NCBI GenBank assembly: GCA_944389075.1
Contig: CALXLA010000034.1
Coordinates: 62,001 to 126,000, forward strand
DNA: 64,000 nucleotides
Source of the DNA: an uncultured Spirochaetaceae bacterium
GTDB taxonomy: Bacteria > Spirochaetota > Spirochaetia > Sphaerochaetales > Sphaerochaetaceae
Direction of reading: 5' to 3'
Positions 5,672 to 63,046 of this stretch are shown one piece after another. The notes beneath the pieces are model-generated. The model was not told where the DNA came from. It was given only the letters and a program-made list of their open reading frames with translations, and did no database searches. Position 1 is the stretch's first letter. Every line of letters starts with the position of its first letter. The position numbers and the translations under genes were made by a program.

Positions 5672-6616
5672 TTACTTAACAAGCGGCATCAGGGCATTCA
5701 CGCATTCTTCTTCTGTCGAAGCCTGAGTCAGCCTGGCTTTGACACTGCTTGCACCGCTGATTCCCTTTATGTATGCCATAAGCTGCTTGCGCATCTCCCG
5801 GCAGGCGATATCTTCGCCATAGCAGCTGATCGCAAGCCTGAGATGTCTGATTGCCGTCATGACTTTCTCTTCTGTGTCTGGAAGAGAATAGCTGCCTGTC
5901 TTAAGATACTCCTTCGTCATCCTGAAGATGAAGGGATTGCCGATTGCCCCGCGTGCGAACATGACACCATCCATGCCGCAGCCGTCAATGATCTCCGCGG
6001 CATCTTCAGGTCTGAAGATATCTCCAGAGGCAAAGAGGAATGCACCGCTTCCTTTCATGTGCTCCGAAAGGCTGCGGAATGCATTCCTGTCAGCTGTTCC
6101 TGAGTATCCCTGCGCTCTGGTCCGCGCATGCAAAGTCAGGACAGATGCTCCTGCATTGTGTACAGCCTCGGCAAATTCAATGTAGTTTATTGATGAGGAA
6201 TCCCAGCCAAGCCGGAATTTCACTGATACAGGTATATCTGTCCTTGACTTGATTGCCTTTATCATCTGGCAGACTTTCTCAGGATCCTTCATCAGCGCAG
6301 AACCGGCACCTGTCTTCACTACCTTTGGAACAGGGCATCCACAGTTTATATCTATCATGTGGGGATTGAAGGACAGCAATGTGTCCATGCACCTTGCCAC
6401 AGGATCTGCAGATGGTGCGAATATCTGGACGATGAGCTTCTCATCCTCGCTGTAGCGGTCAAGAAGATGCTTTGTCTTCTCGCTGTCTCTTGCAAGTCCT
6501 TCAGCGCTCACCATCTCCGTTACCGATCCATCAGCTCCATATGAATTTGCGATCTGCCTGAATGCCTTGTCTGTGTAGCCTGCGAGAGGCGCCAGAAAAA
6601 GTGAGTGTTCTGCCAT
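5672..6616 (-). CDS. dus: tRNA-dihydrouridine synthase (Dus)
   Basis: FMN-dependent enzyme that reduces uridines in the tRNA D-loop, 314 aa. The TIM-barrel N-terminus LFLAPLAGYTDKAFR is typical. The catalytic cysteine lies in DINCGCPVPKVVKTGAGSAL at about residues 93-112. SVKFRLGW and LHARTRAQGYSG follow, then GVMFARGAIGNPFIF for FMN phosphate binding. It resembles DusB-type enzymes, but the subfamily is not certain. No ribosome site precedes the ATG; instead TAATAT lies 7 nt upstream, so the transcript is probably leaderless. It is divergent from the nucleotidyltransferase gene with only 46 bp between them. Confidence 0.95.
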   Translation of the reverse strand: MAEHSLFLAPLAGYTDKAFRQIANSYGADGSVTEMVSAEGLARDSEKTKHLLDRYSEDEKLIVQIFAPSADPVARCMDTLLSFNPHMIDINCGCPVPKVVKTGAGSALMKDPEKVCQMIKAIKSRTDIPVSVKFRLGWDSSSINYIEFAEAVHNAGASVLTLHARTRAQGYSGTADRNAFRSLSEHMKGSGAFLFASGDIFRPEDAAEIIDGCGMDGVMFARGAIGNPFIFRMTKEYLKTGSYSLPDTEEKVMTAIRHLRLAISCYGEDIACREMRKQLMAYIKGISGASSVKARLTQASTEEECVNALMPLVK

Positions 6617-6623
6617 GTTTTGA

Positions 6624-6629
6624 ATATTA
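6624..6629 (-). promoter_or_regulatory. -10 box TAATAT, leaderless dus
   Basis: TAATAT on the minus strand ends 7 nt before the dus ATG. No Shine-Dalgarno sequence lies between them. Confidence 0.6.
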
Positions 6630-6650
6630 CACGATTATCGACCTGAATGC

Positions 6651-6656
6651 TAAGAT
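6651..6656 (+). promoter_or_regulatory. -10 box TAAGAT, leaderless start of the nucleotidyltransferase gene
   Basis: TAAGAT ends 6 nt before the ATG at 6663. The GGAGG in between sits only 1 nt from the ATG, which is too close for normal ribosome binding. Confidence 0.55.
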
Positions 6657-6662
6657 GGAGGC

Positions 6663-7442
6663 ATGGATACTGTTTTGGAAAGGATTGCAGAGGAATTTTC
6701 CCATCTTGAGTCCGTATGTGCTGTAGCGCTCTCAGGTTCGATGACAAGCCAGATACATGATGAGCTTTCAGATTACGATATCTATGTATATGCTGACATG
6801 GAAGTCGGCACGGACGAACGGAAGGCTTTGCTTGAGAGGCTTTCACCGGAATTCCTGCTTTCAGGAATGTCATTCTTCGAGCCAGGCGATGAAATGATGC
6901 TTGAAGGCAATGTCTATGACATCATGTACAGAGATAGCAGCTTCCCTCATCGGGAGATTGAGAGGGTGTGGATTGCCCATCAGCCATCGCTTGGCTATTC
7001 TACATGCTTCCTTCATAATCTCAGGACCCATAGGATACTGTTTGACAGGACAGGTGCGCTTGGAAAGGAGATTGGAAGGCTGGATTCGACATATCCTGAC
7101 GAACTTGCGGAGAGCATAATCAGCTTCAACTGCGAGATGATGACGGGACAATTTTCAAGCAACTGGATCCATCAGGTGGAGAATGCAGTCAGAAGAGGGG
7201 ATCTGATCAGCATCAATCACAGGACCGCTGCGCTGATGGCATCATATTTCGATATCCTTTTCGCGGCCAACAGGGTTCTTCATCCGGGAGAGAAGAAGAT
7301 AGCGGGATATGTGCATCTTCTCTGCCATTCCGTTCCAGAGCATTTCGATGAGGATATTGCCGCAATATATACCAGCCTTGATGGAAATGGCCTTATGGGG
7401 AATCTTTCAAGGGCGATAGACAGGCTGTATGGAATCTTATGA
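6663..7442 (+). CDS. Nucleotidyltransferase-fold protein (DUF4037-like)
   Basis: 259 aa. The N-terminus has the polymerase-beta-type nucleotidyltransferase pattern: LSGSMTSQIHDELSDYDIYV (residues 24-43), giving the GS motif and the DYD metal-binding aspartates; VYDIMY may supply the third acidic residue. The C-terminal half is helical and includes FAANRVLHPGEKK, a string seen in DUF4037-type proteins. The family transfers nucleotides to unknown acceptors; aminoglycoside adenylyltransferases are only distant relatives, so a resistance role is not supported. It is a single-gene unit before the PSP1 gene. Confidence 0.75.
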   Translation: MDTVLERIAEEFSHLESVCAVALSGSMTSQIHDELSDYDIYVYADMEVGTDERKALLERLSPEFLLSGMSFFEPGDEMMLEGNVYDIMYRDSSFPHREIERVWIAHQPSLGYSTCFLHNLRTHRILFDRTGALGKEIGRLDSTYPDELAESIISFNCEMMTGQFSSNWIHQVENAVRRGDLISINHRTAALMASYFDILFAANRVLHPGEKKIAGYVHLLCHSVPEHFDEDIAAIYTSLDGNGLMGNLSRAIDRLYGIL

Positions 7443-7465
7443 TTCACAATTGCCTTGCGATGTGA

Positions 7466-7471
7466 TAGCTT
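7466..7471 (+). promoter_or_regulatory. -10 box TAGCTT, leaderless start of the PSP1-domain gene
   Basis: TAGCTT ends 6 nt before the ATG at 7478. There is no ribosome site. Confidence 0.45.
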
Positions 7472-7477
7472 TTGCGT

Positions 7478-8521
7478 ATGGACAAGAAATCAAAGCATGC
7501 AGATACCGGCGATGATTATGCATATGTATATTATATCAAGAATCCATCGTACAACGATGTCTCGATAGGTGCGTGGGATTCTATTCTGTATTCAGGGACC
7601 CCTGTCATGTATGAGACGCGTTTTGGCCTGGATCTCGGGCTTATAGTCGGACCTCTTGGCGTGGCGGGCAGGTCATATGTTCCCGGAAGTGATGAAATAA
7701 GGGGTGCCTGCCTTCATTTCGGCAGCGATGATGAGGAGAATGGGTATCCACAGGATGATGGAGGCCATCAATGCGATGGCTGTTTCGGATGTCAGATCGC
7801 AAAAGAACCTGAAAAGATGAAAGTCACAGGAGATGTCGACTGGATCGACCATCTTGCGACACCTTCGGAGATGGCCCGTTATGCCGAGAATGAGGAGAAA
7901 GAGGACTATGCACTTCGTATCTGCAGGGAGAAGATCAGGAAACATGGGCTGAACATGAAGCTCGTCACTACCCATTTCATGCCGGCAGAGCCAAAGGTCG
8001 TCTTTTTCTTCACGGCTGATGAGAGAGTAGACTTCCGTGATCTTGTGAAGGATCTCTCAGGCGTTTTCCGCATGCGTATAGAACTGAGGCAGATTGGCAA
8101 CAGGGATGAGGCTAAGCTTATCGGAGGATTGTCGGTCTGCGGAAGGGATTATTGCTGTCATGCGATGATGACTGCCGTGAGCGACAAGAAGTCATCCGTG
8201 ACGATGAAGATGGCCAAGAACCAGAATCTATCACTCAATTCGATGAAGATATCAGGGCCCTGCGGGAAGCTGTTGTGCTGTCTCGCTTATGAAAATGAGT
8301 ATTATCTTGAGGAAAAGGCGGGATGTCCGCCTGAAGGTACCAGGATAAAGCTCGATCATGAGCTCTGGAAGGTGACAGAGGTCAATATCCTGTCGAGGAA
8401 GATAAGCCTTCTTGGATCCGAAGGACGGACGATCATGATTCCATTTGATGAGATATGGTATAATGATGAGACTGGATACTGGCAGGTAAGCGATGAGTAT
8501 CAGGAAGAGCTCTTTTCCTGA
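7478..8521 (+). CDS. PSP1-domain protein (RicT/YaaT-like)
   Basis: 347 aa. The central and C-terminal region shows the PSP1 signature: LIGGLSVCGRDYCCHAMM, then MAKNQNLSLNSMKISGPCGK and LLCCLAYENEYY. In Bacillus the homologue RicT forms an Fe-S-bearing complex that affects RNA processing and development; the role in spirochaetes is unknown. A cysteine cluster CDGCFGCQIAKE near residue 100 could be an additional metal site. A TTG two codons upstream is an alternative start, but the ATG here is 6 nt from a TANNNT box. No ribosome site is present for either. Confidence 0.85.
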   Translation: MDKKSKHADTGDDYAYVYYIKNPSYNDVSIGAWDSILYSGTPVMYETRFGLDLGLIVGPLGVAGRSYVPGSDEIRGACLHFGSDDEENGYPQDDGGHQCDGCFGCQIAKEPEKMKVTGDVDWIDHLATPSEMARYAENEEKEDYALRICREKIRKHGLNMKLVTTHFMPAEPKVVFFFTADERVDFRDLVKDLSGVFRMRIELRQIGNRDEAKLIGGLSVCGRDYCCHAMMTAVSDKKSSVTMKMAKNQNLSLNSMKISGPCGKLLCCLAYENEYYLEEKAGCPPEGTRIKLDHELWKVTEVNILSRKISLLGSEGRTIMIPFDEIWYNDETGYWQVSDEYQEELFS

Positions 8522-12160: not shown

Positions 12161-12697
12161 CCTGGCAATAAGCTCATCAGGTGTGTCACATATAATCAGC
12201 GATGAGCGCACTTCCGCTGAAAGGAAGCCATTAGAAACGGATTTATCAAGCATTTCAAGCAGAGGATCCCAGTATCCTTCTGTATTGAGGAGCGCAATGT
12301 TCTTGCCATGATAACCGATCTGCTTCCATGTATATATCTCAAAGAACTCGTCAAGGGTTCCTATGCCACCTGGCAGCACTGCGAATGCGTCTGCCAGAGA
12401 ATACATCCTTGCTTTTCTTTCATGCATGTCTGGTACGACCAGCAGCTCTGATTCCACATTTCCTTCAGTCACATCAGGAGTATTCATCAGTTCTGGCAGT
12501 ATACCGATGACATAGCTTCCTCTTTCCTTTGCGTGTCTTGCCGCTATTCCCATCAGCCCGAGTCCTCCGCCTCCATAGATGAAACGAATCTTTCTTTCCC
12601 CTATGAGGCAGCCAAGCTTTGCGGCCGCTTCCTGGAATCTGATATCATTCCCTGCGGATGAACCCGAGAATACCGCTATGGATTTAAGTGTGCTCAT
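12140..12697 (-). CDS. LOG-family protein (TIGR00730; nucleoside 5'-monophosphate phosphoribohydrolase)
   Basis: 185 aa Rossmann-type protein. IAVFSGSSAGND is the N-terminal phosphate-binding strand-loop, then FIYGGGGLGLMGIAA. The hallmark PGGIGTLDEFFE (PGGxGTxxE) is intact, so phosphoribohydrolase activity on AMP-like substrates is plausible. In plants the family activates cytokinins; bacterial roles vary. An upstream TTG at 12733 would add 12 residues, but the ATG start gives the usual family N-terminus. CATACT, a near -10 box, lies 6 nt before the ATG and there is no ribosome site. Confidence 0.9.
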   Translation of the reverse strand: MSTLKSIAVFSGSSAGNDIRFQEAAAKLGCLIGERKIRFIYGGGGLGLMGIAARHAKERGSYVIGILPELMNTPDVTEGNVESELLVVPDMHERKARMYSLADAFAVLPGGIGTLDEFFEIYTWKQIGYHGKNIALLNTEGYWDPLLEMLDKSVSNGFLSAEVRSSLIICDTPDELIARLEESPA

Positions 12698-12785
12698 AAC
12701 AGGAGTATGCACTATGCAGATATCAATCTGCAATGATGTTCCCTTGAGTAAATGGCTGTAATTTATAGGTTGCTAGCAGCTGTTG

Positions 12786-16945: not shown

Positions 16946-17235
16946 AGTGGGAAGATATCTGCACGCGCTGTGGTCTTTGCTGCCATGAGAAGATAGTCTT
17001 TCCTGATTGTCTTCTCATTGATGCTGATTCTCCATGTTCGTTCTTCGATAAGGATACAGGCCTCTGCTCTGTGTATCAGAATAGGTTTGATGTCTGCAGC
17101 AGATGCATGAAGGTGACACCTCTGAGAGCAATGTTCGCAGATTATCTTCCGCCCACATGTGCATATGTGCAATGGGCAGAGAGACATCATATACGTTTTG
17201 CGAAAAAGCGTGAGATGATCATCAGATCAGAATGA
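16942..17235 (+). CDS. YkgJ-type cysteine-cluster protein
   Basis: 97 aa. The N-terminal CTRCGLCCHEK and later cysteines (CSFFD, GLCSVYQNRF, CSRC) make the CxxCxxCC signature of the zinc/iron-chelating YkgJ family (UPF0153), whose function is unknown. The ATG overlaps the surE stop by four bases; a longer reading upstream would only read surE sequence in another frame. The 3' end overlaps the opposite-strand outer-membrane gene by 14 bp. A second member of the family lies at 58122-58736. Confidence 0.8.
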   Translation: MKWEDICTRCGLCCHEKIVFPDCLLIDADSPCSFFDKDTGLCSVYQNRFDVCSRCMKVTPLRAMFADYLPPTCAYVQWAERHHIRFAKKREMIIRSE

Positions 17236-17797
17236 ATGGAAGCGGGTCTGGTTCAAGCTGATTGTAGCTATAGCCTCTGAATCTGAATGTTACACCTACA
17301 TATCCTGATGCTATGATGTCAAAGGGACGTCTTCCTTCATCGCCCCAGCTTGCAAACTGAGGATATACAGTAGCTCCTACGACAATGCCGGTGTTCTTAT
17401 CTTTTCCGAAGTAATAGCTGAATGATACATCTGCACCTATTCCGAAATTGACGTAGTTCTTATTATCAGCCTGGAATGTCACTCCCGGTCCAACTACCAG
17501 CGTTATGGTTGTTCTCTCTGCTGGCCTGAATTCGAAACTGGCTCCAGCAAGCGCACCGAACTCAAATCCTCCGTATTCTGAGTTGATGAAGGCAAAATCC
17601 ATATGGGTTCCAAATCCTATTCCCACGAATCTGCTTACATCCGATAGATATCCATAGTTCATGCCTGCGCCAATTACCGCGGAATCTGTTGTGGATGTAT
17701 ATCCTCCTGATGCGGAAATCGAAATGTATTGAGAGCTTGCTGAAACAGGAACAAGCATCGCTGCGATTATAAGAATCAGTAGTAAGGCTTTCTTCAT
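17222..17797 (-). CDS. Small outer-membrane beta-barrel protein
   Basis: 191 aa. Signal peptide KKALLLILIIAAMLVPVSAS with likely cleavage after SASS. The mature part alternates hydrophobic and polar residues with many Gly and aromatic residues (GVTFRFRGY near the end), as in an 8-stranded barrel. No specific family recognised. The N-terminal nine residues of a longer TTG frame are ignored because the ATG at 17797 starts the signal peptide and sits 6 nt after a perfect TATAAT with no ribosome site. Confidence 0.75.
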   Translation of the reverse strand: MKKALLLILIIAAMLVPVSASSQYISISASGGYTSTTDSAVIGAGMNYGYLSDVSRFVGIGFGTHMDFAFINSEYGGFEFGALAGASFEFRPAERTTITLVVGPGVTFQADNKNYVNFGIGADVSFSYYFGKDKNTGIVVGATVYPQFASWGDEGRRPFDIIASGYVGVTFRFRGYSYNQLEPDPLPFILI

Positions 17798-17803
17798 GGC
17801 TGA

Positions 17804-17809
17804 ATTATA
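17804..17809 (-). promoter_or_regulatory. -10 box TATAAT, leaderless outer-membrane protein gene
   Basis: Consensus TATAAT on the minus strand, 6 nt before the ATG at 17797. Confidence 0.7.
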
Positions 17810-18177: not shown

Positions 18178-18183
18178 TAGAAT
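18178..18183 (+). promoter_or_regulatory. -10 box TAGAAT, leaderless receiver gene
   Basis: TAGAAT ends 6 nt before the ATG at 18190; a TTGTTT (18155-18160) lies 17 bp upstream of it. Confidence 0.65.
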
Positions 18184-18189: not shown

Positions 18190-18612
18190 ATGGAGAGAAT
18201 CAGCGCTGTCATACTTGATGATGAGAAGCATGTCGTCAATCTGATAAAAGCACTTCTTCCGTGGGATGAAATAGGGATTGAATACAAGGGGGAGGCATAT
18301 AATGGAGAGGATGGGCTGAGCCTTGTGCTTTCTGTCCATCCTGATATTGTAATCACTGATATCATGATGCCCGGTATGAGCGGGCTTGATCTCATCGAGG
18401 AGACTCACAGGCGCTTTCCTGAGATAGAATTCATAATCATCTCAGGCTACAGGGAATTCGATTATGCCCAGACAGCGATAAGATCAGGCGTTGAGAATTA
18501 TCTTCTCAAGCCTATAGACCGCGATGAGCTGAATTACATACATTGGATTATAACAGAAAACGGGGCTCCTATAAGAGAAGCCCCGGGACATTATGCGCTT
18601 TATCAGACATAG
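18190..18612 (+). CDS. Receiver-only response regulator, truncated YesN-type remnant
   Basis: 140 aa. Residues 1-115 form a complete receiver domain: acidic pocket LDDEKHV, phosphoacceptor in [11 protein letters not shown], and conserved Lys in [10 protein letters not shown]. It closely resembles the receiver of the full YesN-type regulator at 33823-35139. After DELNYIHW the frame runs into the glnA terminator hairpin and ends, so the linker and the AraC-type DNA-binding domain are missing. It is most likely a decayed gene, although the promoter and the receiver look intact and a stand-alone receiver could still be made. The last 10 bp overlap glnA. Confidence 0.65.
18557..18585 (-). terminator. 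Terminator of glnA
   Basis: On the minus strand CGGGGCTTCT and AGGAGCCCCG (one G-U) pair around CTTAT, followed by TTTTCTG. It lies inside the 3' end of the receiver-only frame. Confidence 0.85.
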
Positions 18613-33705: not shown

Positions 33706-33822
33706 AAGGTCTGTGTTTTTCTGTGATGGCCATTTCCGGGAACAGCATCTTAGTGAAGCCGGACCTATCGATTAGAACTCAGAATCTGTACTATCATCAG
33801 ATAGTGAGGTTATATAGGTTTT

Positions 33823-43608: not shown

Positions 43609-43614
43609 TAGAAT
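43609..43614 (+). promoter_or_regulatory. -10 box TAGAAT, leaderless membrane protein gene
   Basis: TAGAAT ends 7 nt before the ATG at 43622. No ribosome site. Confidence 0.6.
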
Positions 43615-43621: not shown

Positions 43622-44101
43622 ATGAAACGGTTGATCCTTTTCCTTATACTCGCTGTTTTTGGATTATTCGTATATTTTATTTCATTCAAAGGGGAGGTAT
43701 ATCTTCTTTTCATCCCCGTTCTGGCAGTTCTCATCGCTGTTTATTATGTCATCTCTTCCCTTGTGACAGAGAAGATGATAGAGAAGAAGCGAGACGATGA
43801 GAATTTCTTTTATCTGAAGTGCTCGAAGATAAGCGATGATGAGACATCGACTGTTCCCGGTGCACTTGCTGTCACTTCATCAGAGATAGTCTTCTATGTC
43901 AGGAAAGATGCGGCTGGCAATATAAAGCCGGCATGGTCATGTTCTGTATCGGAAATCGAAAGCTATGATATCCGGAAGGTTGATGAGAGACATTCCGGGA
44001 TTGCCATAAAGCTCGCAGGTGCTGAGGATGAGGTGAAGTTCATCTCGTCATCAATCGCAAAGAAGGAGGCTGAGTTCAAGAAGCAGCTTGGCTGGACTTG
44101 A
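43622..44101 (+). CDS. Two-helix membrane protein with small beta domain
   Basis: 159 aa, not recognised. Two membrane helices at about residues 3-22 and 27-47 (LFLILAVFGLFVYFISF, LLFIPVLAVLIAVYYVISSL), then a cytoplasmic part rich in beta strands (LAVTSSEIVFYVRKDA, SYDIRKVDERHSGIAIKLAG) that resembles a PH-like fold only in pattern. Single gene, with an apparent leaderless start. It opens a run of envelope genes. Confidence 0.65.
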   Translation: MKRLILFLILAVFGLFVYFISFKGEVYLLFIPVLAVLIAVYYVISSLVTEKMIEKKRDDENFFYLKCSKISDDETSTVPGALAVTSSEIVFYVRKDAAGNIKPAWSCSVSEIESYDIRKVDERHSGIAIKLAGAEDEVKFISSSIAKKEAEFKKQLGWT

Positions 44102-44136: not shown

Positions 44137-44142
44137 TAGCCT
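44137..44142 (+). promoter_or_regulatory. -10 box TAGCCT, leaderless barrel gene
   Basis: TAGCCT ends 6 nt before the ATG at 44149. Confidence 0.45.
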
Positions 44143-44148: not shown

Positions 44149-44655
44149 ATGAAGCGGCTTTTTGTTATCGCAGTTCTATTGATATCTATGCAGGCAGCCT
44201 CCTCCGCAGCGTGGCAGATCGGTGTGGACCTGCGCTGTATTGATTCTGCTTTCATGGGTGCCCTGAGGCTTGATGCTGAAGCATCTTACAGATTCGGCAG
44301 GGTACGTGTGACGCTTCCTCTCCGTTATTCCCATTCCTTCAGTTACGAACTTGATTTCGCAGAGACAGGACTTTATGTCTCTGTCTATCCATTTGATGGT
44401 TATGGCTTCTTCGCAGGTGTATCACTTGTAAGGCTTGGGGTCTTCTGGGGGCTTGAGGCTCCCTCTGAGAGGTTCATGTTCTTTACCGAAGCTATGGTCG
44501 GCTGGACTTTTGAATTCCCGTATTTCTATATTGAGCCACGTTTCACGATGACGGATATATTCTCATCTGAAACAGGGCGCATGGATGTTCTCTCAAAGGC
44601 GATTCCGCAGTATACGCAGTTCAGGATCAGCCTGATTGCCGGTACTGCATTCTGA
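44149..44655 (+). CDS. Small outer-membrane barrel protein
   Basis: 168 aa. Signal peptide KRLFVIAVLLISMQAASSA. The mature part shows alternating strands (VTLPLRYSHSFSYELDF, GLYVSVYPFDGYGFFAGVSL, FEFPYFYIEPRFTMTD) and ends in a hydrophobic-aromatic residue (AGTAF), typical of an outer-membrane barrel recognised by BamA. Family not known. No ribosome site. Confidence 0.7.
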   Translation: MKRLFVIAVLLISMQAASSAAWQIGVDLRCIDSAFMGALRLDAEASYRFGRVRVTLPLRYSHSFSYELDFAETGLYVSVYPFDGYGFFAGVSLVRLGVFWGLEAPSERFMFFTEAMVGWTFEFPYFYIEPRFTMTDIFSSETGRMDVLSKAIPQYTQFRISLIAGTAF

Positions 44656-45597: not shown

Positions 45598-45603
45598 TAT
45601 AAT
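45598..45603 (+). promoter_or_regulatory. -10 box TATAAT, leaderless pepT
   Basis: Consensus TATAAT ends 6 nt before the ATG at 45610. No ribosome site. Confidence 0.7.
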
Positions 45604-45609: not shown

Positions 45610-46821
45610 ATGCGCGAAGATCTTCTTCAGAGATTCCTTGATTACCTGTCATATGACACGATGAGTTCTCCGTGTAATGCTTCTGCAGGCATGAGACCGT
45701 CTTCTGATGGGCAGGAAAAGCTTCTCCTGCATCTTAAGGACTGCCTGGATGCAATGGGAATCGAAACGTACTATGGCGATGAGAAAGTCCTGGCTGCACG
45801 CGTCAAAGGCTCTGGAGATGGCAGGACTGTCGGTTTCATGGCCCATGTCGATACAGCTGATGATGTTCCTGGAAATGGGGTGAGGCCAGTTGTCCATCGG
45901 TCGTTTGTCCCTGCTGATATCCATCTTGGCGATACTGTCATAAAGCTTGATGAGAATCCGGATTTATTGAAATACAGCGGAGGTACGATCATCACGTCTT
46001 CAGGGGATACGCTTCTTGGTGCTGATGATAAAGCAGGCGTGGCGATCCTTATGGAATGCGCATCGCGCCTTCCTTCCTGTGGCTTTCCGCATGCCGATGT
46101 CGAATTCTATTTCACCCCTGATGAGGAGACAGGTCATGGACTTGATTCCTTCCCGGGGCACTGGACTGCATCCGATGTGATATATACGGTTGATGGCGAG
46201 GAAGAGGGCATCATTGAATCTGAGTGTTTCAATGCGGCTGTCGCTAATATCGCGATAAAAGGCAATGCTGTCCATTTAGGCTCTGCGAGAGGTGTCATGA
46301 GGAATGCTGTCGCCGCCGCTGCTTTCATGGTTTCCTCGCTTCCAGGATCCGAGAGCCCGGAAGCTACGGATGGGCGTTACGGATATTATGCTGCTGACAA
46401 CCTTAAGGCGTCGATTGCTGAAGCATCATTTGAGATATACATCCGCGATTTCAGCTATAGCGGGCTCGAAAGGCGGATAGAGACTGTCAGGGCAATAGCG
46501 GAAGCCGCCAGGCATATCTATAGGGTAGAAGTGGAAGCGGATGTCTCCGTGCAGTACAGGAATATGAAGGGAGCGACCGAAAGGAGGCCCGAAGCGCTTG
46601 GAATGCTGTACTCCGCTGCTGAGAAGCTTAGCATGCGGCTTGAATCGAGACCTATCAGGGGCGGAACCGATGGAGCTGCGCTTGCGGCTTTCGGAATCGC
46701 ATCTCCGAATATATTCACAGGTGCGCACAATCTTCATTCAAAGAAGGAATGGATAGCACTTGAAGCTATGGAGAGCTCGCTTTCCCTTGTGATGGGAATC
46801 ATAAGGGAGGCTGCAAGATGA
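45610..46821 (+). CDS. pepT: Peptidase T (tripeptide aminopeptidase)
   Basis: 403 aa M20-family dizinc aminopeptidase releasing N-terminal residues from tripeptides in the cytoplasm. Metal-site segments: GFMAHVDTADDVPGNGV (His and Asp pair), LGADDKAGVAILMECAS (bridging Asp), FTPDEETGHGLDSFPG (catalytic Glu pair) and FTGAHNLHSKKEWIA (last His). RGGTDGAALAAFGI is also typical. Complete length. Its stop overlaps the next start (ATGA). Confidence 0.95.
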   Translation: MREDLLQRFLDYLSYDTMSSPCNASAGMRPSSDGQEKLLLHLKDCLDAMGIETYYGDEKVLAARVKGSGDGRTVGFMAHVDTADDVPGNGVRPVVHRSFVPADIHLGDTVIKLDENPDLLKYSGGTIITSSGDTLLGADDKAGVAILMECASRLPSCGFPHADVEFYFTPDEETGHGLDSFPGHWTASDVIYTVDGEEEGIIESECFNAAVANIAIKGNAVHLGSARGVMRNAVAAAAFMVSSLPGSESPEATDGRYGYYAADNLKASIAEASFEIYIRDFSYSGLERRIETVRAIAEAARHIYRVEVEADVSVQYRNMKGATERRPEALGMLYSAAEKLSMRLESRPIRGGTDGAALAAFGIASPNIFTGAHNLHSKKEWIALEAMESSLSLVMGIIREAAR

Positions 46822-49129: not shown

Positions 49130-49135
49130 TACCTT
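49130..49135 (+). promoter_or_regulatory. -10 box TACCTT, leaderless M16C protease gene
   Basis: TACCTT ends 7 nt before the ATG at 49143. No ribosome site. Confidence 0.4.
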
Positions 49136-49142: not shown

Positions 49143-51995
49143 ATGGATCATAGAGAGGGCGATGTTATTCATGGTTTCTGCGTCACGGAGAATGCCGATC
49201 TTCCTGATTATAAGGGCAGGGGTATCCTCTTCAGGCATTTAAAGACAGGTTTCCGGGTCTATTTCGTGGAAAATGATGACAGGGAACAGCTTTTTTCCTA
49301 TGTCGTATATACACCACCTGCATCATCGAAGGGCATAAGCCATATAATCGAACATACGGTATTGGCTGGAAGCAGCAAGTATCCTGTAAAAGATCCGTTC
49401 ATGCTTCTGGTCCGCAATAGTCCGAATACGTATCTCAATGCGCTCACCGGTGTGGATAGGACATATTATCCTGCGGCAAGCACAGTCAGGAAGGATATAG
49501 ACAATATATTCGCCGTCTATACGGATGCGGTATTCAGCCCGCTTCTCCGTGAAGAGACTTTCATGCAGGAGGGGATAAGGATATCTAAGGAAGGGAAGCC
49601 GCATTTCGAAGGGGTCGTATACTCTGAGATGTTCGGTGTAATGGCAGATCATGAGTCAGTCGTATCGTCTGCGGTTTTCAAGCCTCTTTTCGGAGACAGC
49701 CCTTATCAGTGGGAGTCCGGAGGCGATTGCAGGGAAATAGCAAGACTCACATATGAAGAGTATCTTTCTGAATGGAGAAGGTTCTATGTTCCCTCGAATA
49801 TCTATCTCTTCATATATGGCGATGCGGATATCGATGAGAAACTGAAGGTTCTGGATGGATATCTTTCCGAACGCGATGGAGGAAGTCCTGTGGCGCGCGT
49901 AGGGCTTTCGGCGCGGTGGGATAAGCCCCGGATGCATAGGGCCGTCTCTGCTGCAGGTGATGGAGACAATGGTTCTTCCATACTTCTTTCATGGCTTCTT
50001 GGAGACGGGGTGGATCCTGTTGAGTCTGCGATCCTCTCACTTGCTGTCGATATCCTTCTGGGAGCTCCGGGCTGTCCTCTTTATAAGGCAATAATCGAAT
50101 CAGGTCTCGGTTCGGATCTTTCAACGGAAAGCGGTATGTGCTCATCATATAGGGAGCTTGCTTTCGCTGTGGGATTCGCAGGAGCTGAAGAGAAGAACGC
50201 AGGGAGGATAGAGGATTTTCTCCTGGATGCGCTCTCATCGATTGCCCGCGAAGGTCTGGATCCTATGCTTGTCGAGAGTGCCATACGGAAATGGGAATTC
50301 ACGCAGAAGGAAATCAAGGGTGGCGTCCCTAATGGGATGAGGCTGCTTTTTTCCGCTGATAAGGCACTTACGTTTGGCTTCAGCCCTGTCTCGCAGCTTT
50401 CCCCGTTTGCAGTGATTGATGAAGTGAAGATGCGGCTGAAGGATAATCCTCATCTCTTCGAGGACTGGATAATGAAGTCTCTTATCGATAATCCCCATCG
50501 CCTGCTGACGGTTGTTGCCAAAGATCCGATGTACAGCGCAGGACTGGAGCAGGAGATAGAGGAAATACTTGAAAGGCGGCTTCCTTCATATGGCAGCGAC
50601 AAAGAGGTATTGTTCAATAGCTTCCAGATTTCAGAGGATTCCGATGAGGCTAAGAAGACAGTTCCCCGTCTTTCAGTATCAGATCTTCCTGCAGAGTGCG
50701 ACATAATAAATCATGAAATCGTTGATGGCGTAATCACAGCGTCTATGACTACAGGCGGAATCGTATATACTGACATCCTCTTCGATGTTTCCGATTTCAG
50801 CTATGAAGAGCTTGATGTCCTTGTCGTGCTGACGCGTCTTCTTTCCATGTGCTCAGCTGCAGGAATGGATTACAGCAGGGTCATAACCGAATTGCGGTAT
50901 GTATCAGGCGGAAGTGTCTTCTATCTGGAATCAGGTGCAGATGCGGAAGGAAAGGAGAAGGTCTTCTTCACTGCAAGACTGAAATCACTTCCGGATCTTG
51001 TCGCTGATGGGCTTGATATTTACAGTAAGCTGTTCCTTGAGGCGGATCTGAAGGATGTCAGGCGCATCGCCGCAGCTCTTTCAGATATCCTTACGGAGTT
51101 CCAGTCAAATGCGATTCCGAGTGCGAATTCATTCGGGATATCATACGCATCGCAGTCCTTGTCGGCTTCCCTTTATATCGGTGAACGGATTACAGGCATC
51201 ACATGCTGGGAAGCTGTGAGGAAAATGTCTGAGGCGGATCCCACAGAGGTCTCCGCGGCCCTTGAGCATGTATACAGGAAGACATTCGCCAGAAGCCGGA
51301 TGATTATCCACATATCTGCTGAGAAGGAAGATATCCCAAATGCATGCAAAGCCGCCATGGCCCTGCGCTCATCGCTGCCTGAAGGCAGGATGGAGCATTC
51401 CTATGCCCATGTGATTCCGGAGTTCCCGCGCTGGACAGGATTCTCTGTTCCTTCGCAGGTGTCTTTTGTGTCGATGGCTGGGAGAGGAGCTTCTTTCACA
51501 TCAGCTGAGTCTCCTGCGGACAAGATGCTTCTCTCAATGCTCTCTTCCACTGTCTTATGGCAGAGAATAAGGGAGAAAGGCGGTGCATATGGAGCAGGCA
51601 TCGCACTTGATCCCATAGAGAGGTGCTGGTATTTCTATTCATATAGGGATCCGCGGATCGATGGCACCATTGATGATATGCTCACAGCGCTTGATGGCTT
51701 CTCTTTTGATGAGGAATCTCTGTCAGATGCGCTCATCGGAGAGCTTTCGAGGCTTGTCAAGCCTGTTGCCCCATCCTCAAAGGCAATGCTTGATCTGAGG
51801 CGCATCGTCTATTCGATAAAAGATGAGGACAGGAAGCTGAATCTCTGCCGTACTCTGTCTCTTACTGCCGATGATATCTCTCAGGCTGCTGATAGGTTCA
51901 GAGCATCTCTTGATGACTTCTGCTGTACAGTGATAGGCGGAGGAAAGGCGATAGGAGAGTCGGTGCATCCTTTCATCATAAAGTCATTGCTGTAA
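49143..51995 (+). CDS. M16C-family zinc metalloprotease (presequence-protease-like)
   Basis: 950 aa single-chain M16C protease made of two homologous halves. The inverted zinc motif is in KGISHIIEHTVLAGSSKYP (HxxEH near residue 61) and the third ligand Glu in EGVVYSEMFG. MLLVRNSPNTYLNALTG is a family hallmark. The C-terminal half includes WQRIREKGGAYGAGIALDP, the R/Y substrate-clamp segment. No signal peptide, so cytoplasmic degradation of short peptides is likely. The ATG 49143 matches the usual family N-terminus (GDVIHGFCVTE); an upstream TTG adds 12 residues. Confidence 0.92.
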   Translation: MDHREGDVIHGFCVTENADLPDYKGRGILFRHLKTGFRVYFVENDDREQLFSYVVYTPPASSKGISHIIEHTVLAGSSKYPVKDPFMLLVRNSPNTYLNALTGVDRTYYPAASTVRKDIDNIFAVYTDAVFSPLLREETFMQEGIRISKEGKPHFEGVVYSEMFGVMADHESVVSSAVFKPLFGDSPYQWESGGDCREIARLTYEEYLSEWRRFYVPSNIYLFIYGDADIDEKLKVLDGYLSERDGGSPVARVGLSARWDKPRMHRAVSAAGDGDNGSSILLSWLLGDGVDPVESAILSLAVDILLGAPGCPLYKAIIESGLGSDLSTESGMCSSYRELAFAVGFAGAEEKNAGRIEDFLLDALSSIAREGLDPMLVESAIRKWEFTQKEIKGGVPNGMRLLFSADKALTFGFSPVSQLSPFAVIDEVKMRLKDNPHLFEDWIMKSLIDNPHRLLTVVAKDPMYSAGLEQEIEEILERRLPSYGSDKEVLFNSFQISEDSDEAKKTVPRLSVSDLPAECDIINHEIVDGVITASMTTGGIVYTDILFDVSDFSYEELDVLVVLTRLLSMCSAAGMDYSRVITELRYVSGGSVFYLESGADAEGKEKVFFTARLKSLPDLVADGLDIYSKLFLEADLKDVRRIAAALSDILTEFQSNAIPSANSFGISYASQSLSASLYIGERITGITCWEAVRKMSEADPTEVSAALEHVYRKTFARSRMIIHISAEKEDIPNACKAAMALRSSLPEGRMEHSYAHVIPEFPRWTGFSVPSQVSFVSMAGRGASFTSAESPADKMLLSMLSSTVLWQRIREKGGAYGAGIALDPIERCWYFYSYRDPRIDGTIDDMLTALDGFSFDEESLSDALIGELSRLVKPVAPSSKAMLDLRRIVYSIKDEDRKLNLCRTLSLTADDISQAADRFRASLDDFCCTVIGGGKAIGESVHPFIIKSLL

Positions 51996-53200: not shown

Positions 53201-53206
53201 TATTTT
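53201..53206 (+). promoter_or_regulatory. -10 box TATTTT, leaderless recX
   Basis: TATTTT ends 6 nt before the ATG at 53213, right after the rpsI terminator. No ribosome site. Confidence 0.55.
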
Positions 53207-55439: not shown

Positions 55440-55445
55440 TATAGT
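55440..55445 (+). promoter_or_regulatory. -10 box TATAGT, leaderless clpP
   Basis: TATAGT ends 7 nt before the ATG at 55453. No ribosome site. Confidence 0.6.
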
Positions 55446-55452: not shown

Positions 55453-56022
55453 ATGGAAAACGATAAGAAGGAATACAAACCAGATCCGAGTCTCAGCGAC
55501 AGGCTGCTGAAAAACAGGACGATACTGATTTCCGGAGAGATAAACAAAGACAAGGCTGATGAGTTCACACGCCAGATCCTTGTCCTCGATAGCGAGTCCT
55601 CTGATCCTATATATGTCTATATCAACAGTCCGGGTGGAGATGTTGATTCCGGATTCGCGATCTATGATATGGCAAGGTTCGTCAGCTCTCCTGTCACGAT
55701 GATAGGTATGGGGCTTGTCGCTTCTGCCGCGGCTCTTATCTATCTTGCAGTCCCTGCAGAGAGAAGGCTTGCGCTTCCTGATTCTACATATCTGATTCAT
55801 CAGCCCCTTTCACAGCTGAAGGGAGTTGCGATAGATGTCGCAATCTATGCTGATAAGATCGCAGCACTCCGCAAGAAGCTCGATAAGGTCATCGCGGATG
55901 CCTGCGGGAAGACAGTCGAGGATGTTGCCAAGGATACTGAGCGCGACTGCTGGCTGACAGCAGAAGAGGCCAGAAGCTATGGTCTTGTATCGAGGATAGT
56001 CACGACAAAAGCGGAAATATGA
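55453..56022 (+). CDS. clpP: ATP-dependent Clp protease proteolytic subunit
   Basis: 189 aa. INSPGGDVDSGFAIYDMARF near residue 57 forms the handle region. The nucleophile Ser lies in GMGLVASAAALIYLA, where most ClpPs have ASMGA, so the surroundings are slightly divergent. The His is in TYLIHQPLSQ and the Asp in AKDTERDCWLTAEEARSYGL. No clpX or tig is adjacent, so it may be a second ClpP paralogue (inference). An earlier in-frame ATG at 55336 would overlap ade; the ATG at 55453 gives a normal N-terminus. Confidence 0.93.
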   Translation: MENDKKEYKPDPSLSDRLLKNRTILISGEINKDKADEFTRQILVLDSESSDPIYVYINSPGGDVDSGFAIYDMARFVSSPVTMIGMGLVASAAALIYLAVPAERRLALPDSTYLIHQPLSQLKGVAIDVAIYADKIAALRKKLDKVIADACGKTVEDVAKDTERDCWLTAEEARSYGLVSRIVTTKAEI

Positions 56023-56064: not shown

Positions 56065-57009
56065 ATGAGGCTTTTGATGATTATTGCTTTTCTGTTTGTA
56101 TCTGTTTCGTGCTCTCAGGGTCTTCCTGAGAGTTTCTCTGTCTGCTTCTATAATGCATATCTGCTTTTCGACTCATCTGACGATGGATGGGAATATGATG
56201 GCTTCCGGAAAGGCGATGGATATACAGAGGAAGCTTATCATGAGAGGATAAGGGCACTTGCCATATTTCTTGCGAAATATGCCGAAAGCGATGTGATCGT
56301 GCTTGCGGAAGTCGAGAGCGATGAGGTCCTTCTGGATTTAATTGAAGCAGGCCTTGATATGCGTGGGTACAGGTTCTATGGACTGGCAAGAGGTCCGGGG
56401 CCCCTTTCCCTGGGGTTCATATCAAAACGGAAGCCATCATCCGTGAATATACATTCAACAGATGGCGCAAGGCCTTTTCTGGAGCTTTCATTTGATGCAT
56501 TCACGATTCTGGCGATTCATGCGAGGAGCAGGCTTGAGGATGATAGCGCAGATGTAAGGTTCAATCAGTTCTCACATTTTGCCTCCCTTCTTGAAGAAGC
56601 TGATGGCACTGCTGTTGCCATAGGTGATTTCAACGCGGATCCGCGGTATGGAGAGGAAGGCATGATGATGTATCCATCAGCCGGCTGGCGTGATGTCCCT
56701 ATCAATGTGACGGATGATCCCGGACGGATTCAGAACCGTGTCTATTATTCTCCTTTGATCGATAGTGGCGGAGATGGGACGTATTATTATCAGGATGAGT
56801 GGTATTTCTATGACAATATACTTCTAAGAAAGGAGTCCTTCGATTCTGAAGGCTGGGAATACAGTTCTGCAGGAATTGTCAGGCCGCGTGATGCAGAGGA
56901 TGCGATAGGACGTCCTGATGCCTATGATGCTTCTACAGGCAATGGATTCTCCGACCATTTTCCTGTTCAGGTTTCATTTATGCGCAGAAGTGGTAATATC
57001 CAGATATGA
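56065..57009 (+). CDS. Lipoprotein of the endonuclease/exonuclease/phosphatase superfamily
   Basis: 314 aa. Lipobox IAFLFVSVSCS with Cys at residue 16. The rest shows the EEP fold: catalytic Glu in VIVLAEVESDEV, AIGDFNADPRYG for the Asp-Asn pair and GNGFSDHFPVQVSF for the terminal His. It probably acts on phosphodiester or phosphomonoester substrates outside the inner membrane; nuclease versus lipid phosphodiesterase cannot be decided. No ribosome site is evident. Overlaps the next gene by 4 bp. Confidence 0.8.
   Translation: MRLLMIIAFLFVSVSCSQGLPESFSVCFYNAYLLFDSSDDGWEYDGFRKGDGYTEEAYHERIRALAIFLAKYAESDVIVLAEVESDEVLLDLIEAGLDMRGYRFYGLARGPGPLSLGFISKRKPSSVNIHSTDGARPFLELSFDAFTILAIHARSRLEDDSADVRFNQFSHFASLLEEADGTAVAIGDFNADPRYGEEGMMMYPSAGWRDVPINVTDDPGRIQNRVYYSPLIDSGGDGTYYYQDEWYFYDNILLRKESFDSEGWEYSSAGIVRPRDAEDAIGRPDAYDASTGNGFSDHFPVQVSFMRRSGNIQI
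56994..56999 (+). promoter_or_regulatory. -10 box TAATAT, leaderless aldo/keto reductase gene
   Basis: TAATAT ends 6 nt before the ATG at 57006, inside the 3' end of the preceding gene. Confidence 0.5.
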
Positions 57010-58121: not shown

Positions 58122-58736
58122 TCAGCTGGCCTGAGGCGTGAAATCATCTCCGTTCTCATCGATGAATGACCTGATGAGCATGAGCTTTGATGTTATGGAG
58201 ATAATTGCTTCATCAAGGAGCATTGTCTCCGTATCCCATTCCTGAATCGAGCGTATCTTCTCGCCGTATTCGCTCATGACGGGAATATGGATTTCCTTTT
58301 CTTTCAGAGTCCTGTCGTCGAGATTCCTCTCCATATTGAAGCATCCTCTGAATGACAGTCCGTCTTTTGTCTCGCTTGCCGCAGAACAGAAGACACGGCA
58401 TATTACGGGGCGTACTGAATAGACTGTGCATCTTTTCGTGTCATTGTCGAAAAGCGGACAGCCGGTATGGCTTTCGCTCCATCCCGCAAGATATGATATA
58501 TCCCTTTTCTCCACGAATGATATGTAGAATGCAATCAGAAGTCCCTCAAGATAAGTCACATCAGGAATGAACCTCTCGCAGCACTGCCCGCACCTGTCAG
58601 GACATCTGATCGAGAAGGCTTCCTCGAACTGGCTGAAATCATTCTCGATGGATTTGTAGTAGTTCCATACTGTCAGCATCTCATCATATATGCTCGTGTT
58701 TCTGAATGCGGAAACCGCTTCTTCGATTCGATCCAT
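58122..58736 (-). CDS. YkgJ-type cysteine-cluster protein
   Basis: 204 aa. RCPDRCGQCCERFIPD near residue 44 is the first cysteine cluster; CPLFDNDTKRCTVYSVRPVI, CRVFCSAAS and GCFNMERN complete the metal-site pattern of the UPF0153 family. Function unknown. AATACT, a near -10 box, is 7 nt before the ATG and no ribosome site is present. A minus-strand terminator lies just upstream, so it begins its own unit. Confidence 0.8.
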   Translation of the reverse strand: MDRIEEAVSAFRNTSIYDEMLTVWNYYKSIENDFSQFEEAFSIRCPDRCGQCCERFIPDVTYLEGLLIAFYISFVEKRDISYLAGWSESHTGCPLFDNDTKRCTVYSVRPVICRVFCSAASETKDGLSFRGCFNMERNLDDRTLKEKEIHIPVMSEYGEKIRSIQEWDTETMLLDEAIISITSKLMLIRSFIDENGDDFTPQAS

Positions 58737-58753
58737 GGAATGGAGTATTACAG

Positions 58754-60672: not shown

Positions 60673-60745
60673 TGCTGTCTCCAGGAATCGAACCAGGGAC
60701 ACAAGGATTTTCAGTCCTTTGCTCTACCAACTGAGCTAAGACAGC
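60673..60745 (-). tRNA. tRNA-Phe (GAA)
   Basis: On the minus strand: acceptor GCTGTCT/AGACAGC, D-arm GCTCAGTTGGTAGAGC, anticodon stem AAGGA/TCCTT with loop CTGAAAA giving GAA, T loop TTCGATT, discriminator A. The T-stem CCTGG/CCTGG has one T-T mismatch in the middle. CCA is not encoded. Confidence 0.95.
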
Positions 60746-60769
60746 AGTCGTTCTTAAGCGAACAGGTGT

Positions 60770-60798
60770 AAATTAGCACGATTGGATGACAATTGCAA
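60770..60798 (-). promoter_or_regulatory. Promoter of tRNA-Phe
   Basis: Minus strand TTGCAA (60793-60798), 17-bp spacer, TAATTT (60770-60775). Confidence 0.6.
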
Positions 60799-60819
60799 TA
60801 CCTTTCGCAGAATTATCTG

Positions 60820-62064
60820 TCAGATTCTGATTATGACTTTTACTGTGAATATATTGTCATCCGCAGTTATCGTGACATCGCCTCCAAGTCTTGCTGCGGC
60901 TTCCTTTATGTTCTTTATCCCAAGGCCATGGTTCCTGTTGTCTTCCTTGTGAGTGATGAATGAGCCATCTGCCTCGGTCTTCACTTCCCCCGTGAAGCTG
61001 TTTGAGCACACGAAGAGAAGCTGATTGTCCTTGTCTGTCAGCACTACGCTGATTTTCTTGTCGGGAGGATTTGCCTCGATTGCGTTATCCAGTGCGTTTG
61101 CGACGATTGTGCATATATCTGTCTCATTCAGATTGAGCTCACCGACATTCGCTTCTATATTCAGGTCTATGCCGTTTATCTTCGCACTCTGGTATTTTGA
61201 GTTCAGGATTGCATTGAGCAGGGTATTCTTCGTGAATGTCTTCGAAAGGTTCGCGAATTCAGCTCCAAGCTGCTTGAAATAGCTGATTGCCTTGTCATTC
61301 TCCCCGAGATCGAGATATGTGGCTATGACCGTGAACTGGTTCATCAGATCATGCTTGAACTTCCTGAACTGGAGCTGCTGGGCCTCCACTTCCTGATAGA
61401 AATCCGTTGCAAGCTTCAGTCTTGAATTCTCTTCAGCGAGCTTGAGGCTCCTGCCTACATGGTAGAGAAGTGGGAACATCGCTGTCACAGCTGCCACTGC
61501 GAAGAAGATTATCACATCGGACAGCATCAGGTTCTGCACGGGGAAGATGATCAGCGTGAATATCAGGATGGCAGGGCAGAAGGAGATGAATGCGCTGTAT
61601 CCCCAGACCTCAGGGGTGAATGACGAGAGTATGCTTTTGTCAGAGAACTTATTAACGTACTGCCTGAGAATAGTGAAATATGTCTCATAGAGCGCTATCA
61701 GGACAGCTGCTATGATTGTTGTCATCAGCAGAGGCATGTTATTGCTGATTATTGTCTCAGTCCAGAGCAGTGTCAGCAGGGAGCTTGATGAGATGATCGA
61801 ATAGAACAGCATCGTTACTGCGACAAGCTTGCTTCCCCTGTCCGTGAAGAAGATCCATGTGTATATGAAGAAAGCGAGAGCTGAGAGCAGATATGTTATA
61901 AGCAGGGATGGGATTACAGGAAGCAGACATATCAATGACAACACTATGGCAGAGCAGATTTTCCCGCCTTTCGATTTAAAGCGCGGTTCAAGCATGACAG
62001 GAATAGCTAGATTGATATTCACCGCGATGATGAGAAACAGGATGAGGTGAAGAAGTGTTGCCAT
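60820..62064 (-). CDS. Orphan GHKL-type sensor histidine kinase
   Basis: 414 aa. About six to seven membrane helices in residues 1-210 with little extracytoplasmic sequence, then a coiled linker and the kinase core: phosphoacceptor FRKFKHDLMNQFTVIATYLD, N box TIVANALDNAIEA, and HGLGIKNIKEAAARLGGDV as the G box. This is the AgrC/ComD-like layout seen in peptide or membrane sensing. No LytTR response regulator lies nearby in the window. No ribosome site. Confidence 0.88.
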   Translation of the reverse strand: MATLLHLILFLIIAVNINLAIPVMLEPRFKSKGGKICSAIVLSLICLLPVIPSLLITYLLSALAFFIYTWIFFTDRGSKLVAVTMLFYSIISSSSLLTLLWTETIISNNMPLLMTTIIAAVLIALYETYFTILRQYVNKFSDKSILSSFTPEVWGYSAFISFCPAILIFTLIIFPVQNLMLSDVIIFFAVAAVTAMFPLLYHVGRSLKLAEENSRLKLATDFYQEVEAQQLQFRKFKHDLMNQFTVIATYLDLGENDKAISYFKQLGAEFANLSKTFTKNTLLNAILNSKYQSAKINGIDLNIEANVGELNLNETDICTIVANALDNAIEANPPDKKISVVLTDKDNQLLFVCSNSFTGEVKTEADGSFITHKEDNRNHGLGIKNIKEAAARLGGDVTITADDNIFTVKVIIRI

Positions 62065-62070
62065 ATAAGG

Positions 62071-62076
62071 AAGATA
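62071..62076 (-). promoter_or_regulatory. -10 box TATCTT, leaderless kinase gene
   Basis: TATCTT on the minus strand ends 6 nt before the ATG at 62064. Confidence 0.5.
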
Positions 62077-62134
62077 TCACAAAGATCGATAGTTAAGAAG
62101 TGCTTTCTCTGGTGCCCTTGTTCCCGTTTTGCGC

Positions 62135-62140
62135 TATCAT
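62135..62140 (+). promoter_or_regulatory. -10 box TATCAT, leaderless reductase gene
   Basis: TATCAT ends 6 nt before the ATG at 62147; divergent from the kinase -10 box. Confidence 0.6.
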
Positions 62141-62146
62141 CTGGAT

Positions 62147-63046
62147 ATGAAAGTACGAATAGCAGGGGCAGGGGCTGTAGGAGCGGTGGTTGCCGCTCAG
62201 CTTGCAGGGACTGCGGATGTCGGCTTCATCGCAGATGATGAGCACAGGAAGCGCTATCAGAATGGAATTTCCATCAATGGAAAAAAACATCTTTTCCAGG
62301 TGTTCGCTCCATCTGATGCAGATACTGCGGATCTTCTTATATTCGCTGTGAAGAATATGCAGCTGATGGAGGTCCTTGAGGAAGCCAGGCCCTTTGTCGG
62401 AGAGAATACGGTGATCATGTCGCTTCTCAACGGGATAGATGCGGAGCGTGAGATTGAGAAGGTTTTCGGAGAAGACAGGACGCTTTATTCATTCATAACG
62501 GATCTCTCTTCCACGCGCCAGGGTGATGATATCACATGCTTTTCAGGAAGCGGCACGATTGTATTCGGCGAGAAAGACGACAGCAATACGGAAAGGGTGC
62601 AGCGCATTGCAAGGTTTTTCGATGAGGCAGGGCAGAAGTATCTCATACCGGAGAATATCAGGCATGAGAAATGGTGGAAGTTCATGCTCAATACATGCTT
62701 CAATACACTTTCCGCGATTCTTCTTGCAGACTATGCGGCAATATCATCAAACAGGGACTTCATCCGCCTTGTCCGCATGATCGCCCGTGAGATACAGTCC
62801 GTTGCCATCAAGGAAGGTGTACTGCTTACTCAGGAAGATGTGGAAGAGATGATAAGGCGCGTCACATCGCTGACAGACCATGGAAAGACATCCATGCTGC
62901 AGGATGTGCTGGCGCATCGCGAGACAGAGAACAGATATTTCGCAGGAGCCATATCAAGGCTTGGCAAGAAGCATTCCGTTCCTACGCCATATTGCGATTT
63001 CATACAGATAATGCTTGAGGCTAAGCGTCATGTACTCAGCATCTGA
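62147..63046 (+). CDS. Ketopantoate reductase family protein (PanE/ApbA)
   Basis: 299 aa. NADP-binding N-terminus KVRIAGAGAVGAVVAAQLAG, then LLIFAVKNMQLMEVLEEARP and VIMSLLNGIDAEREI. The catalytic Lys segment is IRHEKWWKFMLNTCFNTLSA near residue 182, and TSMLQDVLAHRETE near 251 matches the C-terminal domain. It would reduce 2-dehydropantoate to pantoate for coenzyme A, although many family members have other 2-oxoacid substrates. The upstream TTG reading adds six residues and is not needed. Overlaps the next gene by 17 bp. Confidence 0.9.
   Translation: MKVRIAGAGAVGAVVAAQLAGTADVGFIADDEHRKRYQNGISINGKKHLFQVFAPSDADTADLLIFAVKNMQLMEVLEEARPFVGENTVIMSLLNGIDAEREIEKVFGEDRTLYSFITDLSSTRQGDDITCFSGSGTIVFGEKDDSNTERVQRIARFFDEAGQKYLIPENIRHEKWWKFMLNTCFNTLSAILLADYAAISSNRDFIRLVRMIAREIQSVAIKEGVLLTQEDVEEMIRRVTSLTDHGKTSMLQDVLAHRETENRYFAGAISRLGKKHSVPTPYCDFIQIMLEAKRHVLSI

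Follow-up and report, generated by a model that had tools for sequence, protein, structure and literature searches.

Candidate promoter boxes at gene starts in the window

The window, a stretch of 64,000 nucleotides (nt), is C34:62001-126000 (contig CALXLA010000034.1) in the draft genome of an uncultured Spirochaetaceae bacterium, which comprises 2.23 Mb in 60 contigs. Fourteen of its genes carry a TANNNT hexamer 6 or 7 nt before the ATG, which the initial annotation had read as the −10 box of leaderless transcription; all 14 boxes lie where it had placed them, and its three near-matches are likewise found at the spacing given. We consider it very probable (about 0.9) that these boxes belong to ordinary promoters of the primary sigma factor which start transcription at the A of the ATG, so that the mRNA would carry neither a 5′ leader nor a Shine-Dalgarno (SD) site.

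The spacing between box and ATG is 6 nt in ten of the genes and 7 nt in four (dus, 43622, 49143 and clpP at 55453). At the left of the window dus (5672-6616, minus strand; Pfam Dus) has TAATAT at 6624..6629 (−), 7 nt before its ATG. The gene at 6663, with a weak nucleotidyltransferase/DUF4037 match in Pfam, is preceded at 6 nt by TAAGAT together with an extended −10 TG (6651..6656, +), and the PSP1-domain gene 7478-8521 at the same distance by TAGCTT, again with the TG (7466..7471, +). In several relatives (e.g., G004, G006, G008, G009, G012 and G015) the coordinates place dus and the PSP1 gene side by side in divergent orientation; in the window (5672-8521) the nucleotidyltransferase-like gene, 6663-7442, separates them and both flanking genes keep their start box. 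Further along, TATAAT with the extended TG (17804..17809, −) stands 6 nt before the ATG of 17222-17797 on the minus strand (weak DUF2715 match), and TAGAAT (18178..18183, +), with TTGTTT 23 nt before it, stands 6 nt before the ATG of the response regulator 18190-18612.

In the middle of the window the gene at 43622 has TAGAAT 7 nt before its ATG (43609..43614, +) and TTGTTA 24 nt before that box, the gene at 44149 has TAGCCT at 6 nt (44137..44142, +), and a pepT-like M20 peptidase gene at 45610 has TATAAT at 6 nt (45598..45603, +). The M16 peptidase gene at 49143 shows a fuller set of elements, namely TACCTT 7 nt before the ATG (49130..49135, +), TTGAAA 23 nt before the box and the extended TG. 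For recX (53213) the box is TATTTT with the TG at 6 nt (53201..53206, +), and for clpP (55453-56022, the start being taken at 55453) it is TATAGT at 7 nt (55440..55445, +). A doubtful member is the aldo/keto reductase gene at 57006, whose TAATAT with TG, 6 nt before the ATG (56994..56999, +), falls within the last part of the upstream gene. At the right, TATCTT with the TG (62071..62076, −) stands 6 nt before the ATG of a minus-strand gene for a GHKL-ATPase sensor kinase-like protein (60820-62064), and TATCAT (62135..62140, +) 6 nt before that of the ApbA/PanE-like gene at 62147. The near-matches are CATACT (12704..12709, −), 6 nt before the ATG at 12697 on the minus strand (lysine decarboxylase-like/LOG) and with TTGCAG 24 nt before it; TATATA (33811..33816, +), 6 nt before the ATG of the AraC-type response regulator 33823; and AATACT with the extended TG (58744..58749, −), 7 nt before the ATG at 58736 on the minus strand (CxxCxxCC domain).

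The extended −10 TG thus accompanies the box in 7 of the 14 genes, and the base directly before the ATG is C or T in 17/17 cases, boxes and near-matches together. The initial annotation had all 14 genes begin transcription units. This suits the 8 that diverge from their neighbour (a tRNA lies between in the case of 18190); the other six follow a same-strand gene at gaps of −4 to 80 nt (35 nt for 7478, 47 for 44149, 65 for 45610, 37 for 49143, 80 for recX and −4 for 57006), so that a first position there is a presumption and the box would be an internal promoter.

Spacing, promoter elements and gene layout in the genome sample

Gene starts were set by a simple caller of our own, in which a coding score decides and upstream motifs are ignored; its settings vary between runs and gene totals therefore vary slightly. 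With these automatic starts 14/59 window genes have TANNNT at spacing 6 or 7, against an expectation of about 2 (P = 4e-8). The remainder of our sample of this genome, whose sequence had played no part in the initial annotation, gives 57/574 genes at these spacings with about 21 expected (P = 4e-11). In a sample of 745 kb of the 2.23 Mb, with 578 genes, there are 49 boxes at spacing 6 and 19 at spacing 7 against a background of 10.8 per position (P = 5e-16), with 2 at spacing 5, 7 at spacing 8 and a count at spacing 4 (8-9) that is not raised; the genome-wide excess to which the initial annotation had looked for a check is present. A smaller sample (417 kb, 331 genes) has TANNNT at spacing 6 in 28 genes and at 7 in 11, about 5 per position being expected. 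We considered an artefact of start choice and compared three start definitions, the two alternative ones giving 22+14 and 21+6 boxes at spacings 6+7 among 334 genes. A stray single spacing is found elsewhere, with 17 boxes at spacing 11, and the pooled class set has 71 boxes at spacing 0 versus 44.5, but without the other promoter elements (1 strong box, that is, one with a −35 element or TG).

TANNNT at two spacings has a measured background of about 3.7%, close to the one gene in 32 first estimated. At such a rate a few single cases, 57006 among them, may well be chance matches, and wrongly chosen ATGs could add others. As an account of the whole set this has next to no probability and is already contradicted, given the P value outside the window, the recX and M16 orthologues described below (26/29 and 25/29 with the box) and the flat controls, namely Escherichia coli and the 2910 in-frame internal ATGs, at which TANNNT occurs at spacing 6 in 0.7% and at spacing 7 in 1.0%.

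Aligned on the box, 68 genes have T in 74% at 23 nt and in 53% at 22 nt before it, and TTG is found at a distance of exactly 23 nt in 16 cases and of 24 nt in 8, versus about 2.3 expected for both together, an enrichment at the 17-18 nt between −35 and −10 that is typical of sigma-70. The extended TG at −3/−2 from the box is found in 27/68 box genes versus 34/510 others, and one or other element, TTG at 22-25 nt or the extended TG, in 45/68. The base before the start codon is a pyrimidine in 61/68 box genes versus 272/510 others. RNA polymerase favours a pyrimidine at −1 where the next base is the starting purine, and this count fits a +1 at the A of the ATG; by the usual geometry of the polymerase, a box at spacing 6 or 7 would also put +1 on that A. 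At the level of DNA sequence, the promoter elements and their register to the start codon are clear.

The hexamer could also be an AT-rich translation enhancer, or an unstructured S1-type site in a leadered mRNA whose true promoter lies further upstream. AT-rich stretches before starts have been discussed as S1 or low-structure signals of genes without SD sites (PMC5397173). A site of that kind would have no use for a TTG 23-24 nt upstream, a TG at −3 from the box or a pyrimidine at −1, yet all three are enriched, and the sharp two-position spacing fits a promoter better; we give this alternative very little credence and return to promoters that start transcription at the ATG.

An SD-like site precedes 5/65 box genes versus 287/477 others (P = 7e-17), and the two signals largely exclude each other. 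SD words lie upstream of about half of all genes; SD-like words are found at 63% of close same-strand followers and 34% of divergent genes. The initial annotation had given SD sites to operon-internal genes and to ribosomal protein genes; the sole ribosomal protein gene that we looked at, S9, has one in 8/8 of the orthologues shown. The boxes are distributed the other way, with 38/138 divergent genes carrying one at spacing 6 or 7 versus 14/252 close same-strand followers, and 7/50 genes at gaps of 41-100 nt. Judged by these counts, the layout occurs beyond chance in about 8% of genes and in about a quarter of divergent genes, and would be a minority mode beside SD initiation. All but one of the first 14 reappear in one list of box genes, which holds 13 window genes, clpP being the one missing.

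No single function stands out among the box genes outside the window. Pfam was run on 20 of the 38 that are listed with a strong promoter, and 19 match a family, including release factor 1, a gyrase B/ParE-type protein, a PEP-utilising phosphotransferase and Ham1. A strong promoter of the leaderless type also stands before a TnpB-like gene (Cas12f1-like TNB domain) at L021:10985-12220.

In the mechanism that we propose, a primary-sigma promoter, made up of a −35 TTG, a −10 TANNNT and in many cases the extended −10 TG, would be set against the start codon. Transcription would begin at the A of the ATG and yield an mRNA without a 5′ leader and without an SD site, and ribosomes, most likely as assembled 70S particles, would start at the 5′-terminal AUG or sometimes GUG. 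The exact +1, the absence of a leader on the RNA and the 70S initiation are our inference.

Conservation of the start box and its spread in Spirochaetia

Eight window genes were compared with family loci, taken as the best loci, at most 30, per genus search of 48 genomes (our own included) together with further loci; orthologues had at least 40% identity and an alignment reaching the first 12 residues, and duplicates were dropped. A box at spacing 6 or 7 is found in 26/29 recX, 25/29 M16 and 30/39 dus orthologues, in 20/33 for PSP1, 10/15 for clpP and 14/29 for the aldo/keto reductase, and in a further comparison in 10/16 for 44149; for recX and M16 other single spacings hold 0-2 boxes. Control genes without a box have none at these spacings in their orthologues (S9 0/21, 46818 0/18, 5593 on the minus strand 0/31, 47789 0/7 and 56065 0/5). 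In a first sample the orthologues of box genes had the box in 38/59 cases (56 of the 59 belonging to dus and PSP1), those of SD genes in 7/183 and those of genes with neither signal in 1/57. Among the relatives of the control gene 56065, 3/5 of those shown have GTATA a few nt before the ATG, off the TANNNT rule and perhaps a variant promoter.

The box follows the start codon rather than the alignment. Among orthologues with a box, the start codon is shifted in alignment position relative to the query in 29/30 for dus, 15/25 for M16, 12/20 for PSP1 and 7/26 for recX; in the orthologue rows shown the upstream DNA has otherwise diverged, and the distance from box to start is kept though the start codon often moves. 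From these comparisons the leaderless mode looks widespread and the start codon looks to be held on the transcription start by selection. In 11/39 dus orthologues (e.g., L023-L026, L028-L030, L184 and L189) the box stands before a GTG only, 6-7 nt away, which suggests leaderless GUG initiation; mycobacterial leaderless mRNAs likewise use 5′-GUG besides 5′-AUG.

The clpP gene is leaderless-type in the window's own genus and in Bullifex porci; in the Sphaerochaeta group L086, L099, L102 and L111 have an SD site instead, as do many Treponema rows, and distant rows (L064, L106, L110, L149 and L151) have a box at another start. As predicted from these upstream regions, this is a switch of mode at one gene between the leaderless type and SD initiation. 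A ClpP tree, based on this single gene and with several open forks, places the window genome among Sphaerochaetaceae, with loci of uncultured Spirochaetaceae/Spirochaetales bacteria (L082-L085) nearest and Bullifex porci next. A ClpP search of plasmids gave no spirochaete lead among the best 10 of 264 records. One exact pattern for the 3′ end of 16S rRNA, tried on this genome, found no match; the draft may lack that region, and nothing follows about the anti-SD sequence.

For the wider survey, sequence sets were merged under labels of our own and run through the same pipeline. The excess of boxes at spacings 6 and 7 is 7.5% in the window's own genome, 6.7% in the same genus, 6.0% in other Sphaerochaetaceae and 5.9% in further Spirochaetia, and in Treponema it is 10.8% for rumen/gut, 7.1% for termite and 6.1% for other members. 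Seven of nine Spirochaetia sets are positive (P = 6e-4 to 5e-16), and the −35 TTG is enriched in all seven. Sets too small to be used singly were merged and counted in the larger ones; among them Bullifex/L088 (0/5), f8 (1/30), f14_g14 (1/23), f20, f35, f51 and others show no excess alone. Thermus thermophilus pTT27 served as a positive control (6/39, P = 3e-5), Deinococcus deserti plasmid 2 as a modest one (5/97 at spacings 6 and 7, 4.4% excess, P = 9e-4) and E. coli K-12 as the negative control (2/110, P = 0.9). The other classes of the phylum that were sampled show no excess at these spacings (9/242, P = 0.9), and in one 3.2 Mb family of 29% GC outside the class the signal was not seen (5/47). 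Leptospira belongs to another class of the phylum than Spirochaetia.

Pooling the seven positive sets, strong promoter boxes number 105 at spacing 6 and 50 at spacing 7 before ATG (background 7.6), 7 and 7 before GTG (2.5) and 0 and 1 before TTG (3.6). Among 514 divergent genes of pooled Spirochaetia, 91 have a strong promoter at spacing 6 or 7, the rate at 16-45 being about 3 per position, and spacings 8 to 65 together hold, by our estimate, about the same number above the far-upstream background. By these motif counts the trait extends well outside the genus of the window, and roughly one gene in ten, in this spirochaete and in much of the class, appears to start its mRNA at the start codon.

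Weighing of the evidence and comparison with known leaderless systems

Most of the sequence tests favour the leaderless reading, namely the spacing peak, the register of −35 and extended −10, the −1 pyrimidine, the SD exclusion, the preference for divergent genes and the constant distance in orthologues. That said, some observations weigh against it, and others limit single cases. All gene starts rest on our simple caller, and the orthologue test counts every ATG or GTG between 8 codons upstream and 5 codons downstream of the expected start, which raises the number of chance hits. Where a same-strand gene lies over 100 nt from its upstream neighbour, a box is found in only 6/102. The claim that none of the 14 genes has an SD site holds for the box genes in general, as the 5/65 above indicates, and fails at 6663, where GGAGG ends 1 nt before the ATG, too close for a normal SD site yet present. 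The strict box of the pepT-like gene is kept in 3/29 orthologues; many of the others shown carry NATAAT, often CATAAT, close to its position. Orthologues of dus have boxes at spacing 11 in 11/39 cases. For the aldo/keto reductase 57006, SD sites are found in 16/29 orthologues and all 14 with a box start elsewhere (in the rows shown, 4-8 codons further upstream); its closest orthologue, L370, has an SD site and no box, and its inclusion among the original 14 is doubtful. The matches to 18190 in the compared loci (n = 2, 40-46%) carry SD sites instead, although 33823 matches the same two loci, which may hold different response regulators; the matches to 33823 (n = 2, 41-50%) and the sole, distant match to 43622 (37%) have SD sites too. 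The orthologue of the minus-strand gene at 58736 (n = 1, 65%) is without a strict TANNNT at spacings 6 and 7, and among the compared family loci there was no orthologue of 6663, 17797 (−), 62064 (−), 62147 (ApbA) or 12697 (−). Within Spirochaetia, the Alkalispirochaeta/GWB set (63% GC) is weak (4/83, P = 0.1, with a −1 pyrimidine in 0/4), and the family f16 (29% GC, about 1 Mb) shows no excess (4/47).

A last point of this kind is a shoulder of strong boxes at spacings 8 and 9 (23 and 18 versus 7.6), to which PSP1 orthologues contribute a parallel, with boxes at spacing 8 in 6/33 and at spacing 9 in 9/33. Some mRNAs may accordingly have a leader of 1-3 nt, and one could suppose that +1 generally lies 1-5 nt upstream of the ATG, the mRNAs being nearly but not strictly leaderless. 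We regard this as improbable for the set, since spacings 6 and 7 form the peak and from there the polymerase would place +1 on the A, a pyrimidine precedes the start codon in nearly all box genes, and TTG starts, at which strong boxes are no more frequent than background, do not share in the signal. Promoters that start transcription on the A itself remain our preferred reading.

Beyond the window, we lean towards a broader proposal. Much of Spirochaetia, Treponema and Sphaerochaeta included, would be one more of the large bacterial lineages that use leaderless starts systematically. Recognisable promoters of divergent genes at the start codon would be about as numerous there as those with leaders of any length up to about 60 nt taken together, start codons would have been re-chosen in evolution so as to stay on the transcription start, and orthologues would switch between leaderless and SD initiation; other classes of the phylum would be without this promoter-at-ATG form. 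If true, annotation of gene starts in Treponema and Sphaerochaeta by SD models only would have no signal to read at about one gene in ten, and expression tools for these genera could use 5′-AUG transcripts. Spirochaetia would also offer natural switches between leaderless and leadered mRNA at the same gene, which make the cost and benefit of both modes testable by comparison.

Leaderless gene starts are known elsewhere and were already hinted at in spirochaetes, so that this is no new kind of system. The initial annotation knew of no description for this group of spirochaetes, but leaderless spirochaete genes had been published (PMC3160421; PMC5243855). As far as our searches of the open-access literature go, which found no description of leaderless starts for Sphaerochaeta or Treponema, what appears new is how far the mode extends in Sphaerochaetaceae and Treponema, together with the evidence that selection may keep the start codon on the transcription start.

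In Zheng et al. (2011; PMC3160421), leaderless “TA-led” bacterial genes were computed from a TANNNT signal about 12 nt upstream of the start codon, and were found in 6/18 Spirochaetes genomes with a mean of 3.9% (1.8-6.9). Our spirochaete shares this signal and the exclusion of SD sites, and differs in an excess of about 8%, in the 38/138 divergent genes and in representing a genus of Sphaerochaetaceae; the −35, −1 and orthologue evidence is added here, as is the presence of the layout in most of our Spirochaetia sets. A primary transcriptome of Leptospira interrogans lists about 440 genes with a transcription start within 10 nt of the start codon, 184/170 of them exactly at it, and detected no general promoter motif other than that of sigma-54 (PMC5243855). 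It is also a spirochaete with mapped leaderless transcripts, whereas here clear −35 and −10 elements are seen. A paper on the Borrelia ribosome describes leaderless transcripts as frequent in that genus (PMC10618245). In mycobacteria, an unrelated phylum, leaderless mRNAs are reported as a major class (PMC3898074; PMC4633059), mapped there by RNA sequencing and read here from DNA. In Deinococcus-Thermus the −10 region of leaderless genes is described next to the open reading frame (PMC12340547), directly before the ATG as in our spirochaete; the leaderless share is higher there, at about 40% (PMC3160421), and here it would be a minority mode beside SD initiation.

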